NCBI RefSeq assembly: GCF_001907695.1
Contig: NZ_KV880638.1
Coordinates: forward strand, 1,054,882 to 1,118,881
Direction of reading: 5' to 3'
Source: Thalassospira sp. TSL5-1
GTDB lineage: Bacteria; Pseudomonadota; Alphaproteobacteria; Rhodospirillales; Thalassospiraceae
DNA: 64,000 nucleotides
Shown here: positions 24,707 through 49,440 of the stretch, piece after piece
How positions within the stretch are numbered: position 1 is the stretch's first letter
How the letters are laid out: each line of letters opens with the position of its first letter
Notes under the pieces: generated by a model
What the model was told of the DNA's origin: nothing
The model's input: only the letters and a program-made list of their open reading frames with translations
Databases searched by the model: none
Position numbers and translations under genes: made by a program

Positions 24707-24737
24707 TGACAGGCAAAGGGTTTTCGCCTGAAACAAC

Positions 24738-24765
24738 AAAGCCCGGTCCTTCTGGACCGGGCTTT
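24738..24765. terminator. Bidirectional terminator
   Basis: AAAGCCCGGTCC paired with GGACCGGGCTTT, between the convergent DUF3830 and aminotransferase genes. Confidence 0.7.
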
Positions 24766-24793
24766 GTCATGAGATGAACCTTGATGAAACGTC

Positions 24794-26089
<1,296 letters not shown>

Positions 26090-44543: not shown

Positions 44544-45014
44544 TCAGCCTTCAAGCAGCGAACGCAGCATCCAGGCGGTTTTTTCGTGGGTTTGAATGCG
44601 CTGGGTCAGAAGGTCGGCGGTGGCATCGTCGTCGGCTTCATCGCACAGCGGATACAGGGCGCGTGCGGTTTTAATCACCGTTTCGTGGCCTTCAACCAGT
44701 TGCTTGATCATTTCCTTGGCGGCGGGAACGCCTTTTTCATCCGCAATCGAGCTTAATTCCGCAAAGGCCGAAAAGCTGCCCGGTGCAAATGCGCCGAGGG
44801 ACCGGATACGCTCTGCCAGTTCGTCAACGGCGGCTGCCAGTTCGGTATATTGCTGTTCAAACATGGTGTGCAGGGTCTGAAACATCGGGCCGGTGACATT
44901 CCAGTGGAAATTGTGGGTTTTCAAATACAGCGCATAGGAATCTGCCAGCACCCGGCCAAGACCCGATGCAATGTCGGTACGGTTCTGTTCGTTAATACCA
45001 ATGTCAATCTGCAT
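44544..45014 (-). CDS. dps: Dps family DNA-protecting ferritin
   Basis: 156 residues from the ATG at 45014, with AGGAG 7-11 bases upstream. Ferroxidase ligands are visible in [28 protein letters not shown]. Dps forms dodecamers that oxidise iron with hydrogen peroxide and coat DNA under stress. A perfect ATAG-N7-CTAT element lies 110 bases upstream, suggesting OxyR control. Confidence 0.95.
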
Positions 45015-45122
45015 GATGTTCTCCTGGTGTCTGAATATGGGTGTGACACATGATGTTTTTGGTGATGGCGTTATTATGGTGCAGAACAAAAAATAATGCC
45101 AATCAGTCCTTTAATCTTTCAG

Positions 45123-45139
45123 GATAGATAAAACCTATC
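45123..45139. promoter_or_regulatory. OxyR-like half-site upstream of dps
   Basis: GATAGATAAAACCTATC contains ATAG-N7-CTAT exactly, half of the OxyR consensus, and is palindromic at its ends. It lies between dps and the RNA cluster and could act on either side. Confidence 0.4.
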
Positions 45140-45257
45140 AAGGCCGGGAAGGGTGCGTTTGACAGGTATCGCGCGAGCTTCGCGGATGAATTTTGGCGAT
45201 GCCGGTTTTCCTGGCAGGTCTGGTCTTTATTGAATCATTTTGTATATCGCACCTGTT

Positions 45258-45285
45258 TTGACAGCCGAAATCAATATGATAAGAT
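45258..45285 (+). promoter_or_regulatory. Sigma-70 type promoter before RNA unit 1
   Basis: TTGACA (45258-45263) and TAAGAT (45280-45285) with a 16-base spacer. Transcription would start near 45292 and run through RNA unit 1. Confidence 0.5.
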
Positions 45286-45394
45286 GTAGACCTTAAATGG
45301 AAGGCTGCGGGCTTTGCTTTCTGGAAATGGGTTTCGCCATATTTATGACGTAATTTGCCTCCGAATTGCCATATCAGGCCTGCTTTCCAGCCTT

Positions 45395-45580
45395 ATTCGT
45401 CAGGCAGTGTCGCTCTTGTCAGCAGCACATATTGCCGGAACATTATTTCCCCCTCAATCGTATCCGGCCTGCTCTCTTCGTCCCCCCGTTCGAGAGCCAA
45501 TAGCTGCTAAAAGCTGACAGGTCTCCCCAAGACCATTAGACCCCAAAATGGGGGCGGGTAGTCCCGCCCTCTTTTTTTTT
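45395..45580 (+). ncRNA. C-rich-loop sRNA candidate, unit 1 of 6
   Basis: Hairpins in order: GCCGGA/TCCGGC (45434-45468) with CCCCC in its loop; GCTCTC/GAGAGC (45471-45497) with CCCCCC in its loop; GGTCTCCCCAAGACC (45520-45534) with loop CCCCA; then the terminator GGGCGGG/CCCGCCC (45552-45569) and ten pyrimidines, nine of them T. The 5' end is uncertain: the promoter at 45258 would give about 290 nt, whereas the part homologous to the other units starts near 45395. No frame has a ribosome site. C-rich loops match the anti-Shine-Dalgarno type. Confidence 0.65.
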
Positions 45581-45683
45581 GAGGGTATTCTTGTATCGGG
45601 GTTTTACAAAAGATTCAAAATTTGTTCGACTTGCCTTAATTCGCCCTGAAATTGCCCTAAGCGGCAGGATTTCATGCCGTAAT

Positions 45684-45886
45684 CGGCGTTCATAGTCTTT
45701 CTTGTCGAACGCAGCACACTAGGCAATGCGCCCCTCCCTCGTAATTTGCCTGGCCTGACGCCGTTGTCCCCAACAACGTTCTGCACCCCACAGGCCCTGT
45801 GCTCATGTGTTTGACTGGTCTCCCCAAGGCCATCTGTCCCCCCAAAAAAAGCGAGCCAGGTTCCCCCGACCTGTCTCGTTTTTTTG
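45684..45886 (+). ncRNA. C-rich-loop sRNA candidate, unit 2 of 6
   Basis: AGGCAA/TTGCCT (45721-45751) closes a loop with CCCCTCCCTC; CGTTGT/ACAACG (45762-45778) closes CCCCA; GGTCTCCCCAAGGCC (45817-45831) keeps pairing through a G-U pair; the terminator CGAGcCAGGT/ACCTGtCTCG (45852-45879) has loop TCCCCCG and seven T. The upstream box reads AAATTGCCCTAAG. The 5' end is an estimate. Confidence 0.68.
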
Positions 45887-45991
45887 TGTCTATCGTTGGG
45901 GTTGTCGTGGATATCGAGGAGGCGGTGACATAATTATGCCGCAAAGTGTCACGAAATGGCCCAGAGTGACCATTTTTCCTGCCGCAATCAC

Positions 45992-46191
45992 CGGGCATAT
46001 TCATACTTGTCGGACGCGATGACAGTCGGCCTGGTGCCTCCCTCACCATATGTCGGCGACCTGATGGCATGTCCCCCCAAGAAAGCCATCACCCCCAAGG
46101 TCATTAATTCCGCGTCCGTATGGTCTCCCCAAGACCATCTGTCCCCAAGAAATGGCGAAGCAGGTTCCCCCACCTGCTTCGCTTTTCTTTT
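45992..46191 (+). ncRNA. C-rich-loop sRNA candidate, unit 3 of 6
   Basis: TGGTG/CACCA (46032-46048) with loop CCTCCCT; TGATGGC/GCCATCA (46062-46091) with CCCCCC in the loop; linker with CCCCC; TGGTCTCCCCAAGACCA (46121-46137); terminator GCGAAGCAGGT/ACCTGCTTCGC (46155-46182) with loop TCCCCC, then TTTTCTTTT. It is the first unit of a duplicated two-unit block. Confidence 0.7.
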
Positions 46192-46360
46192 ACCTTTGAG
46201 GGGCGCCGATAACAGGGCGTGCCAGCTATGCGATCGCGGTTTTGTGAAGTTGATTTATCCTTGCGCATAATTGTGAAATCTTATCATGCTGTCGCGGCAC
46301 AAAAATGCCCCAAAAGGGCATGAAATGGCCCTAAGCCTCCGGTTTTTTTGCCTCATTCAC

Positions 46361-46548
46361 GGGGCATATTCATCCTTACCGAACACGATGTACCGGTGCG
46401 GTGCCCTCCCTCACCAACCACCGGGACCGGAATAGCGGCTCCCCTCCGGCTATTCATCCCCCACGGTCTGTTCCGTGTTCGGTCGGTCTCCCCAAGACCA
46501 TCTGTCCCCAAACGGGGTGGGTTTCCCTGACCCACCCCGTTTTCTTTT
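46361..46548 (+). ncRNA. C-rich-loop sRNA candidate, unit 4 of 6
   Basis: Nested stem CCGGTG/CACCGG (46393-46424) with inner GGTG/CACC around CCCTCCCT; GAATAGC/GCTATTC (46430-46455) with CTCCCCTCC in the loop; linker ATCCCCCA; CACGG/CCGTG; GGTCTCCCCAAGACC (46485-46499); linker TGTCCCC; terminator ACGGGGTGGG/CCCACCCCGT (46512-46540) and TTTTCTTTT. Nearly identical to unit 6. Confidence 0.72.
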
Positions 46549-46678
46549 GCGTGGCGATCCGTTTGCCAAGGATACGCGGACATGTGGTGCCGATACTGAA
46601 CCTGTGGAGAATGTGGCATTATCGGGCGATAAAAGACGCTAAATGGCCTTAGGTTTCCGGTTTTCTTGCCGTATTCAC

Positions 46679-46874
46679 GGGGCATATTCATTCTTGTCGA
46701 ACACGATGTACCGGTGCGGTGCCCTCCCTCACCAACCACCGGGACCGGAATAGCGGCTCCCCTCCGGCTATTCAACTCTCCCACGGTCTGTTCCGTGTTC
46801 GGCTGGTCTCCCCAAGACCATCTGTCCCCAAGAAATGGCGAAGCAGGTTCCCCCACCTGCTTCGCTTTTCTTTT
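46679..46874 (+). ncRNA. C-rich-loop sRNA candidate, unit 5 of 6
   Basis: The 5' two thirds equals unit 4 (same nested CCCTCCCT stem and GAATAGC/GCTATTC stem, linker CTCTCCCA), while its 3' end, TGGTCTCCCCAAGACCA (46804-46820) and the terminator GCGAAGCAGGT/ACCTGCTTCGC (46838-46865), equals unit 3. It is thus a mosaic of the two types, or was homogenised by gene conversion. Confidence 0.72.
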
Positions 46875-47044
46875 GCCTTTGGGTGTTATGGACAAAAGAT
46901 GTATTGAAAGCAGGTGATCGCAGAGTTGTGAAGCCATTTTAGCCTTGCGGATAGTTGCGAAATTTCCGTGTGATGTTGCGGCATAATAATGCCTCAAAAC
47001 GGCATGAAATGGCCCTAACTGCCCGGTTTTCCTGCCGTATTCAC

Positions 47045-47231
47045 GGGGCATATTCATCCTTACCGAACACGACGTACCGGTGTGGTGCCCTCCCTCACCA
47101 ACCACCGGGACCGGAATAGCGGCTCCCCTCCAGCTATTCATCCCCCACGGTCTGTTCCGTGTTCGGTCGGTCTCCCCAAGACCATCTGTCCCCTTCGGGG
47201 TGGGTTTCCCTGACCCACCCCGTTTTCTTTT
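47045..47231 (+). ncRNA. C-rich-loop sRNA candidate, unit 6 of 6
   Basis: Same order of hairpins as unit 4, with a G to A change at the edge of the GAATAGC/GCTATTC loop that leaves the stem intact. GGTCTCCCCAAGACC at 47169-47183; terminator CGGGGTGGG/CCCACCCCG (47196-47222) and TTTTCTTTT. It faces the 3' end of the convergent cyclase gene 36 bases away. Confidence 0.72.
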
Positions 47232-47267
47232 GTCTGCTGTGTCGTTAAGGGGCCCCGTGGCAAGCTG

Positions 47268-48620
47268 TCAGATTGTCTCGCTTTGACAGGCATGATGGTC
47301 CGTACTGAAAATCGGGGTGGGATGCGTGCGTCCGCGCACGGTAACCTCGCCTCGTCGCGTCCAGATCCCGGCGAAGGAATGGTCCTTGCAGTGGGCCACT
47401 GTTACCTCTGATGCCAGAATGTAGGTGCCATATTGTTTGTTCAGTGGTTCCAGCCTGGCTGCGATATTGACGGTGTCGCCATGCACGGTGAAGGTCAGTC
47501 GGTTTTCGCTGCCAATGGCACCCACAATGATATCGCCGGTATTGATACCGCAACGGGTTTTGAGTTTGCTGCCGTGGCAAAAATTTCGGGTTTCACACAG
47601 CTTTTGAATTTCCAGGGCGGTTTTGACCGCACTTTCGGCATGGTTGGCATCGGGCTTCAGGGCGTTAAAGGTGATCAGCATGGCGTCGCCCTGAAACTGG
47701 GTAATCACCCCGCCAAATTTTTCGATAATGGCGCTGGTGGCGGCGAAATATTCGTTGAGCATCCGGGCCAGTTCCGCCGGGCGCAGTTTTTCGGAAATGG
47801 TCGAAAAGCCTTCTATGTCCGTGAACATGATGGTCGCGTGAACCGCTTCGCCGTCGCCGGGTCGTATTTGCTGGTCGGCATGGGTGATGCGGTCTGCGAC
47901 CTCGCGCGAGACAAAGCGTGACAGGTCACGCACGGCGATTTCTTCGCTCACGGCACGTTTGAAGGAACGTTGTGCGCGCAGAACGGCAATTGCGAGCACG
48001 CTCGAGACCATAACAATGGAAATGATCTTGTCGATCTCGGCCCCGATCAGAATCGAATTTGAGGTCAGGTAGGTGACATAATCGCGCGTGATCATGCTGT
48101 GCCCGCCTTCGCTCCAGAGCACGTAAAACACCAGCGCCAGCCAGCCGAGCGCGGCACTGGCCCCGGCAAGCAGAATGTAGCGGGGGTCAAACCGCAGGGC
48201 ACGCAGTGAAATGAAGATAAACACATACATCATTGTTGGTGCCTTGAGATAAAAGCTGGCCGGTTGCATGTACTGGATGTGAAAGCTCCAGATCAGCACC
48301 ATCAGCAGGCTGATATCTGCAATGACGGAAAGGGTTAAAACCCAGGCGGGCAGATCGATGCGATAGGACAGAACCAGCCGGCTGAAGGTAATGATGAAAT
48401 ACAGGCCAAGGGCCCAGGGGACTGGATGGAATCCGTCGCTCATGGCGGTTTTGGGCGCAAGGGCATAAAGGGTGGCAAAAATTGTCACCAGTAGTAACTG
48501 TACCCAGCCGATCAGCTGTTCGCTTTTGCGCTGTTGATTGACGATGGCGGTGTTGACCCGCTCGGGAAGACTGTTTTCCGGTGCCCGACCAAACAGAAAT
48601 TCTGCGAAATTGTTTTTCAT
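47268..48620 (-). CDS. Membrane-anchored class III adenylate/guanylate cyclase
   Basis: 450 residues. About six membrane segments in residues 38-215 are followed by a short linker and a single cyclase domain (about 258-435). Metal-binding Asp268 in MFTDIEGFS and Asp312 in FQGDAML are present, so the domain looks active as a homodimer. Substrate choice between ATP and GTP cannot be settled by eye. It lies between the two RNA clusters and is convergent with unit 6. Confidence 0.9.
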   Translation of the reverse strand: MKNNFAEFLFGRAPENSLPERVNTAIVNQQRKSEQLIGWVQLLLVTIFATLYALAPKTAMSDGFHPVPWALGLYFIITFSRLVLSYRIDLPAWVLTLSVIADISLLMVLIWSFHIQYMQPASFYLKAPTMMYVFIFISLRALRFDPRYILLAGASAALGWLALVFYVLWSEGGHSMITRDYVTYLTSNSILIGAEIDKIISIVMVSSVLAIAVLRAQRSFKRAVSEEIAVRDLSRFVSREVADRITHADQQIRPGDGEAVHATIMFTDIEGFSTISEKLRPAELARMLNEYFAATSAIIEKFGGVITQFQGDAMLITFNALKPDANHAESAVKTALEIQKLCETRNFCHGSKLKTRCGINTGDIIVGAIGSENRLTFTVHGDTVNIAARLEPLNKQYGTYILASEVTVAHCKDHSFAGIWTRRGEVTVRGRTHPTPIFSTDHHACQSETI

Positions 48621-48864
48621 GAATGTGCCCCGCGATTTTACCGGGTCATAGTGATCGCTGTGACAGAGGCTGCCAAGTCAGAGCTATACACGGGCCTTCA
48701 CCTTTGCGTGTCGCGGGCTCTGTGCGGATGGCAAAGGGTAAGGAAATGCAATGTTTCGCGGTCATTGCCTGGGAAAGAATATTTGACAGCGTGTGCAGAT
48801 GGAAATGGGCTTTGCGGTAAAAGGGCCTTCAAGACGTCTGCCGGTCATTAAGAGGATTTTGGAC

Positions 48865-49060
48865 AAAAAAAAGCCGGGCATCAATGTGCCCGGCAAGTTT
48901 ATCAGGGAGGCTTCACGTCTGGGAGACGTAGGACCCCTCTCAGGGCCCTGGGTAAGCCGGGCAGGGCGCCCGGCTAAGACCGAAAAAACGGTCAGGGAGA
49001 AAACTCTGTACCGCGGTGCGGCGTTCACCGCTGCGGTTCGAGAGTCAAAATAGCGATTTA
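48865..49060 (-). ncRNA. C-rich-loop sRNA candidate A (minus strand)
   Basis: Read on the minus strand: CTCCCTGACC, a GCCGGGC/GCCCGGC hairpin, then ACGTCTCCCAGACGT (6-bp stem, loop CCC; 48916-48930), AAGCCTCCCTG, and the terminator GCCGGGCA/TGCCCGGC followed by eight T (48865-48894). The 5' end is an estimate. A palindrome CATGCGT/ACGCATG lies at 49096-49112, about 232 bases from the T-run. No coding frame with a ribosome site is seen. Confidence 0.65.
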
Positions 49061-49112: not shown

Positions 49113-49242
49113 TTTCTCGAATAGGTTCCCAATTTTAATTAATCAATTGAAATTAAAAGATTTTATCGTGATTAAAATTTAGCTAAAGCGCGGAAACCAT
49201 TATGTTCCATTTCTTTGACGGGAAAGAAGACCGCGTGTGAGC

Positions 49243-49440
49243 AAAAAAAACGGCAGCCTTGGCGGGCTGCCGTTAAGTCTCAACAGGGAGGCTTTAACGT
49301 CTGGGAGACGTGGAATCGCTTGGATTCCAGCCAAATAACGTTTTGGCAGGACGCCCCGGAACGGGGATAAAAAAAGATGAAAAAAGTCTTGGGTGTTGCG
49401 CGAAGCAACAACCACAGGTGAGAATATAGAAGGCTGCTGT
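49243..49440 (-). ncRNA. C-rich-loop sRNA candidate B (minus strand)
   Basis: Minus strand: a CCCCG/CGGGG hairpin, GGAATCC/GGATTCC-type pairing, then the same ACGTCTCCCAGACGT hairpin as sRNA A (49297-49311), AAAGCCTCCCTG, and the terminator CGGCAGCC/GGCTGCCG followed by eight T (49243-49271). TATATT on the minus strand near 49425-49430 is a possible -10 box. The stem sequence of the terminator differs from that of A although its form is kept. Confidence 0.65.

Follow-up and report, generated by a model that had tools for sequence, protein, structure and literature searches.

Small RNAs (sRNAs) with C-rich loops are already known as a kind, and the CcsR sRNAs of Rhodobacter carry a C-rich loop motif. 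The action of sX13 of Xanthomonas depends on its C-rich loops and on G-rich motifs in the targets; compensating mutations failed to restore regulation, so that direct pairing is not fully proven even for sX13 (PMC3771888). NfeR1 silences ntrB via its anti-Shine-Dalgarno motifs (PMC10746234).

The window analysed here is a stretch of 64,000 nt (C2:1054882-1118881) of a Thalassospira genome of 4.97 Mb (G000). Between dps and a cyclase gene it carries an array of six sRNA units on the plus strand (45416-47232), with a spacing between copies of 297-364 bases. Two types can be told apart, A (U1) and B (U2-U6). In a repeat comparison U3+U4 and U5+U6 resemble a tandem pair, and U5 is a mosaic with a 5' core like that of U4/U6 and a terminator like that of U3. 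A first-pass annotation of this DNA had described six consecutive plus-strand units, each with a GGTCTCCCCAAGACC hairpin followed by another hairpin and a T-run, which was borne out for all six; the varying second-hairpin stems that it listed (GCTCTC/GAGAGC, CGTTGT/ACAACG, TGATGGC/GCCATCA and GAATAGC/GCTATTC) and its four different terminator stem types are likewise present in the sequence. Six copies of GGTCTCCCCAAGACC were found on the plus strand, the one in U2 with an A to G change that keeps the pairing as G-U, and no copy on the minus strand even when 3 mismatches were allowed. On the plus strand CTCCCC occurs nine times in 45395-47240 compared to twice in the rest of the window. Fold z scores of the units against dinucleotide shuffles (200 per unit) ranged from -5.5 to -7.5, whereas 30 random window pieces (60 shuffles each) had a median of -0.63 and went no lower than -3.64.

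Table 1. Features of the array and its surroundings, in window coordinates. U2-U6 were used to build the covariance model (CM), and their CM matches therefore hold by construction.
Feature	Position	Strand	Evidence or remark
U1 (type A)	45416-45579	+	fold z -5.45; CM R1 match 45418-45546, 37.7 bits (U1 outside model)
U2 (type B)	45703-45887	+	fold z -6.74; CM match 104.3 bits
U3 (type B)	46008-46192	+	fold z -7.31; CM match 119.2 bits
U4 (type B)	46375-46549	+	fold z -6.40; CM match 140.3 bits
U5 (type B)	46693-46875	+	fold z -7.47; CM match 135.2 bits
U6 (type B)	47059-47232	+	fold z -5.69; CM match 138.5 bits
H3 of U1	45520-45534	+	H3 of the other units starts at 45817, 46122, 46485, 46805, 47169; GGTCTCCCCAAGACC starts at the same six positions
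Terminator of U1	45550-45571	+	terminator scan
Terminator of U2	45849-45880	+	loop CCCCC
Terminator of U3	46154-46183	+	loop UCCCCC; same type at 46837-46866 for U5
Terminator of U4	46510-46542	+	loop UCCCU; same type at 47196-47222 for U6
Promoter-like block of U3	45934-46017	+	alignment of upstream regions in 29 loci
-10-like GGCATATTC of U3	45994	+	exact also at 46363, 46681, 47047 for U4-U6
Dps/ferritin-like flanking gene	44544-45014	-	PF00210, E 1e-31
Adenylate/guanylate cyclase, flanking gene convergent with array	47268-48620	-	PF00211, E 2e-25
MmgR/alpha-r8-like sRNA	48858-48934	-	Rfam suhB 28.3 bits, SorX 26.8 bits, both below gathering
Second MmgR/alpha-r8-like sRNA	49236-49316	-	Rfam suhB 35.1 bits, below gathering 41

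When folded individually, the six window units and 12 units from five other Thalassospira contigs mostly have one plan in common: an outer stem P0 that encloses two hairpins, H1 and H2, followed by H3, a C-rich linker and the terminator. The few folds that depart from it belong to type A and to some close type-B units. The C-rich loops that the first-pass annotation had placed ahead of H3 are real, but their hairpins do not form the simple string it had suggested, being enclosed by the outer stem. The H1 loop reads CCCUCCCU in type B and UCCCCCCU in type A; H2 combines a C-rich apical loop with another C-rich stretch, which lies in the 3' internal loop of this hairpin; and the linker after H3 is UGUCCCC in type B and GACCCC in type A. 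H3 is a near-invariant hairpin, GGUCUCCCCAAGACC with the loop CCCCA, and unlike the other stems it is conserved in sequence. Unpaired bases of the six units comprise 48% C and 6% G, compared to 25% C and 15% G in random window pieces. In the predicted folds, U2-U6 each have six C-rich runs with over half of their bases unpaired and U1 has four, giving 34 altogether. The RNA that a unit can encode is compact, ~165-185 nt long, and predicted to display four to six C-rich unpaired sites.

A simple terminator scan of 45000-47300 detected a site for every unit, strong in U1 and U3-U6 and weaker in U2; counting both strands, this region contains 18 terminator-like sites compared to 3.2 in shuffles. 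Upstream, the units have in common a conserved region, AATTTGCCC..AAATGGCC, then TTTTCCTGCC, then the -10-like GGCATATTC, with only a weak promoter-like match for U1 and U2. Across the family, 52 of 73 units match GGCATATTC at 8 or 9 of its 9 positions, and in 46 of the 73 it ends 5 bases ahead of the parsed start of the outer stem. Since the -35 region is poor, an activator likely drives the units, and the upstream repeats, spaced by 11 bases, would fit a response regulator of the winged-helix kind. The presence of a terminator and a conserved upstream block in each unit argues against one processed precursor, and the six units are probably transcribed independently. A search of the window's own genome with the promoter motif, allowing up to 2 mismatches, gave 15 places, compared to 5 in the control, and no regulon emerged from it: one place belongs to U2 of the array, and nine of the 14 off-array places were inspected by eye, of which eight look coding and one (L156) lies in a gap that precedes a response-regulator-like gene. 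The promoter was also read, by eye only, as a sigma-54 or an RpoH site, and both readings were dropped.

For type B, a covariance model built from 12 units served to align 43 matches, of which 42 are distinct, drawn from the window and 25 loci under an E-value limit set to exclude type-A and cut-off units; the full model search of 30 sources gave 76 matches. In the 42 distinct units 97.1% of pair cells are standard pairs, compared to 86.4% after shuffling, and the covariation score is 0.413, compared to 0.201 in shuffles (0 of 500 as high) and 0.04-0.09 in slid-partner controls. Double-sided changes affect 16 of 25 pairs in this alignment, whose fitting to the model favours covariation, and a structure-free MAFFT alignment of the 12 units already contains them in 14 of 25 pairs. 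The exception is H3, in which 4 of 5 pairs never vary across the type-B alignment. In type A (27 distinct of 28 units) the stems are replaced around loop strings that largely persist, such as UGUCCCCCCUCA, and RNAalifold detected 9 pairs without double changes, because the turnover of the stems is too fast for alignment. Computation thus shows that selection keeps the pairing and the C-rich loops of the units. The selection on RNA structure that had been claimed from covariation within the array is upheld by the covariation score, the fold z scores and the G-U excess, and covariation in orthologous loci, examined for type-B units, is present as well. G-U cells number 46 and A-C cells 4 (other mismatches, 26), from which the plus strand is taken as the RNA, though the model was built on that strand. 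A functional minus strand, whose loops GGGGA/GGGAGG contain GGA and could bind CsrA or form G-rich sponges, would draw on folds about equally stable on both strands; as T-runs come after the stems on the plus strand, and given the bias in G-U over A-C cells, we regard it as extremely improbable. There is hardly any more room for an array of protein-coding or inert DNA repeats. Open frames do span several units, e.g. one of 262 aa on the minus strand at 46353-47141, but aligned unit lengths fall into all three classes modulo 3 (11, 11 and 20 of 42), the stem changes are compensatory, and the array is conserved in 29 of 29 genomes. Fold, strand, loops and conservation are all supported by computation.

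Both a DNA search and the model detected the family in 29 of 29 Thalassospira genomes. Across 297 genomes of the order these 29 matched strongly, and 5 of the 268 others gave short weak matches (E 7e-4 to 0.09, limit 0.1); in the class, 385 genomes including 2 of Thalassospira, there was one weak short match among the 383 others (E 0.003, limit 0.01). Both searches used stricter filters, by which weak relatives may be missed. L146 and L174, the two out-of-genus matches that were inspected, are G+C-rich, look coding or nondescript, and were rejected. The exact H3 17-mer is found in 29 of the 297 genomes of the order, all of them Thalassospira, and a plasmid search gave no match. Outside the genus, the order and class searches yielded no convincing member. 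Within the window's own genome, H3 recurs off the array at two places with 2 mismatches, below the reversed control (7), both coding by eye. On these comparisons the family is probably Thalassospira-specific.

The 29 loci of 1.5-3 kb contain 73 units (72 distinct; units within 260 bases of the locus start left out), 28 of type A and 45 of type B. H3 is present in two copies in 23 of the 24 loci outside one many-copy clade, and the remaining one (L109, the 24th) is truncated where its contig ends. In the many-copy genomes it numbers six (G000), seven (G014), five (G011 and G019) and four plus one 41 kb away (G010), and these five genomes form one clade, with support 1.0, in the tree of the SulP gene discussed below. 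G016, G021 and G022 gave 3-5 model matches, which include the SulP site and weak short matches, and in G021 also a second array and a split unit. By automatic parsing, CCC is present in 20 of 22 type-B terminator loops of the five many-copy genomes compared to 2 of 23 elsewhere, and in 0 of 28 of type A. The many-copy genomes with their frequent CCC terminator loops are one lineage, and one event may explain the pattern.

The arrays of G010 and G021 (MAG SP131) seem to be interrupted by phage-like insertions of ~40 kb (L196, L176 and L195), both junctions of which end in AGTGTCGGTTAACA. The G010 copy looks identical to the IMG/VR contig IMGVR_UViG_2775506933_000002, and the insertion is possibly a transposable phage. 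Since in G021 one unit is split and an intact pair lies on another contig of the MAG, strains may be mixed in it.

The Dps protein beside the array has its best matches on five Thalassospira contigs (85-93% identity), and the cyclase gene adjoins the array in 27 of 29 loci. Upstream of the cyclase gene, on its far side from the array, lies a pair of MmgR/SorX-like sRNA genes, both of which miss the RF00519 gathering score of 41; sub-threshold matches to this model are also present in L007, L008 and L010. The one at 48858-48934 contains the hairpin ACGUCU-CCC-AGACGU and CCUCCCUG. Comparable pairs were seen in L006, L007, L008 and L010, and none in L009 with the pattern used. The MmgR-like hairpin GUCU-CCC-AGAC resembles H3, and L006 and L008 carry a further hairpin with a CUCCCC loop. 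In T. mesophila, an sX13-like match (L007:16987-17102, minus strand; 36.9 bits, gathering 50) with C-rich stretches and GGUCUCUCCCCGACC lies just downstream of an open frame. Elsewhere in the window, 24732-24803 (minus strand) weakly matches the threonine operon leader (32.3 bits, gathering 55).

Off the array, the H3 17-mer occurs once in each of eight genomes (G004, G013, G016, G017, G020, G022, G023 and G026), in all eight antisense to the gene of a SulP/STAS transporter (sulfate-permease family) and upstream of that gene; the G016 protein contains PF00916 and PF01740. The SulP mRNA leader would carry GAUGGUCUUGGGGAGACCUGUC, starting 121-139 bases ahead of the start codon, as the perfect complement of the genome's own type-B unit (H3 plus flanks) over 22 nt in six genomes, 20 in G022 and 18 in G017. 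Because a promoter-like sequence precedes the site on the mRNA strand, and the other strand has no terminator-like T-run, we read it as a target and not as an sRNA gene. On sequence grounds it is a candidate sRNA target, and it could instead be a copied piece of an sRNA gene that was not selected as a target. Its 22 bases are invariant in 8 of 8 genomes, but so is the neighbouring 22-base block (offset -44), and conservation alone does not single out the site. Minimum-energy folds of two leaders pair much of it within the leader. Duplex z scores against shuffled leaders (40 shuffles each, nine genomes) were -6.8 for G016 and -3.9 for G004, and -2.3 to +0.8 in the seven genomes without a perfect site.

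A close SulP homologue is present in 28 genomes, and 20 of these, the window's own included, are without the long match. In the gene tree the eight site-bearing genomes fall within a group of 12 that also comprises G002, G003, G012 and G015, in which the leader matches in part or differs; a single origin of the site and its later decay are likely. Complements of the H3 core are scarce: apart from array and SulP, the 11-mer TCTTGGGGAGA occurs at only 11 places in the 29 genomes (reversed control 3). Eight of the ten regions inspected look coding; the 11th, G007:C24, was outside the ten. One place, at the start codon of a sister-clade membrane protein, had been considered as a Shine-Dalgarno site and was dropped: with an ATG in frame further upstream, the place is coding and covers codons 8-11. 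This protein was taken for an ABC exporter, and a Pfam search with 292 aa of it assigned no family. In G009 (L261 892, minus strand) TCTTGGGGAGA starts 38 bases ahead of an open reading frame that is rpoN-like by eye. The 12-mer complementary to the linker has only few scattered off-array places.

With moderate confidence, we interpret the array as six tandem, probably independently transcribed Thalassospira-specific sRNA genes whose C-rich sites would pair with G-rich ribosome-binding sites or leaders and lower translation or stability. By analogy with described sRNAs an anti-Shine-Dalgarno-like action is most likely: CCCUCCCU, UCCCC, CUCCCCAA and GUCCCC would base-pair with G-rich stretches of several mRNAs, located in the 5' leader or at the ribosome-binding site, additional copies and C-rich loops would raise the dose, and the SulP-family leader would be a concrete candidate target in 8 of the 28 genomes that have a close homologue. 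That these RNAs are expressed, pair and repress is our inference. The main point that loop pairing leaves unexplained is the unchanging H3 stem, which goes beyond the need of loop pairing alone and also suits protein recognition; the SulP match, which extends through this stem, may be the reason in some species, and recognition by a protein is the other possibility. CsrB/RsmZ-type RNAs titrate CsrA through GGA loops, and the array RNAs might in the same manner titrate an RNA-binding protein, with multivalent C-rich loops and H3 as recognition hairpin. Such a decoy would agree with the many C-rich sites, with the clade-specific rise in copies and C-rich terminator loops, and with an H3 conserved in its stem and not just in its loop. 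The loops differ in sequence, however, the SulP complementarity would be left unexplained, and we know of no bacterial protein with such a C-rich hairpin-loop specificity; we consider the decoy unlikely. That the units act as a sponge for one or several G-rich regulatory RNAs appears distinctly improbable: the RNAs would be stable, tandem and multicopy, and sponges exist in Alphaproteobacteria, where CrfA sequesters SisA-D in Caulobacter (PMC12559287), but the two sRNAs next to the array have C-rich loops of their own, nor did any G-rich partner RNA come to light incidentally. The first-pass annotation had assigned the array to the cuckoo/CcsR class. Tandem copies and C-rich loops conserved on fast-changing paired stems, a trait of cuckoo and alpha-r14 sRNAs, are indeed common to both. 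This membership was nevertheless not borne out: the hairpin-loop motif CCUCCUCCC of cuckoo, alpha-r14 and CcsR is absent from both strands of the window, no DUF1127 (CcaF1-like) gene lies beside the array (of four in the genome, only one is on the array's contig, ~580 kb away), and the separate upstream blocks and terminators argue against a single precursor from an RpoH promoter. The units also have a predicted three-way junction plus H3 and match no family of Rfam 15 at E <= 1, sX13 (RF02232) included. True but divergent members of the cuckoo/CcsR/alpha-r14 group are thus very unlikely.

In the literature searched, we found no description of the family, its junction fold, the H3 module or the copy-number history, and among the papers listed none is by its title on sRNAs of Thalassospira. 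The array thus represents a well-supported sRNA family that folds unusually and has many C-rich sites per locus; close relatives carry between two and seven copies, and a near-perfect candidate target is present in some species only. Tentatively, and with more doubt than conviction, we propose an evolution of valency in which one clade went from two to 5-7 copies and also carries C-rich terminator loops, the near-fixed H3 acted as common pairing module, the SulP leader gained its 22-nt complement once and lost it by decay in some descendants, and the dps-cyclase region became an sRNA island that includes the two MmgR-like genes with GUCU-CCC-AGAC. A joint evolution of sRNA dose, loop number and target complementarity would be directly testable in this marine genus.

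The array resembles several known systems in part. Comparable features of sX13 are its three stems, whose apical CCCC/CCCCC loops act on G-rich motifs near start codons, and its loop motif UCCCCCU, to which the H1 loop of type A is similar (PMC3771888); sX13 is, however, a single 115-nt gene in another class, with neither an outer stem nor an invariant H3. Its repression through G-rich motifs does not require Hfq. Alpha-r14, NfeR1 and cuckoo RNAs are also multicopy and combine hypervariable stems with conserved anti-Shine-Dalgarno loops (PMC10746234, PMC7143759, PMC3927594), but their hairpins all carry CCUCCUCCC, whereas the array units are without it and their loops differ mutually. CcsR1-4 of Rhodobacter are four tandem sRNAs of an alphaproteobacterium as well; in contrast to the separate array units, they share an RpoH promoter and a transcript with the DUF1127 gene CcaF1, and RNase E processes them (PMC10253847). 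LhrC1-5 of Listeria are multicopy, with redundant UCCC in loops and linker and a promoter per copy (PMC4132741), and differ in phylum and architecture, the array having no Rfam match. MmgR/SisA (alpha-r8, RF00519) is represented by the neighbouring genes, whose GUCU-CCC-AGAC is common to H3; its model is 77 nt long and is not matched by the array units. Altogether, by analogy the array would work most like sX13, alpha-r14 and LhrC, with C-rich loops directed against G-rich ribosome-binding or leader regions.
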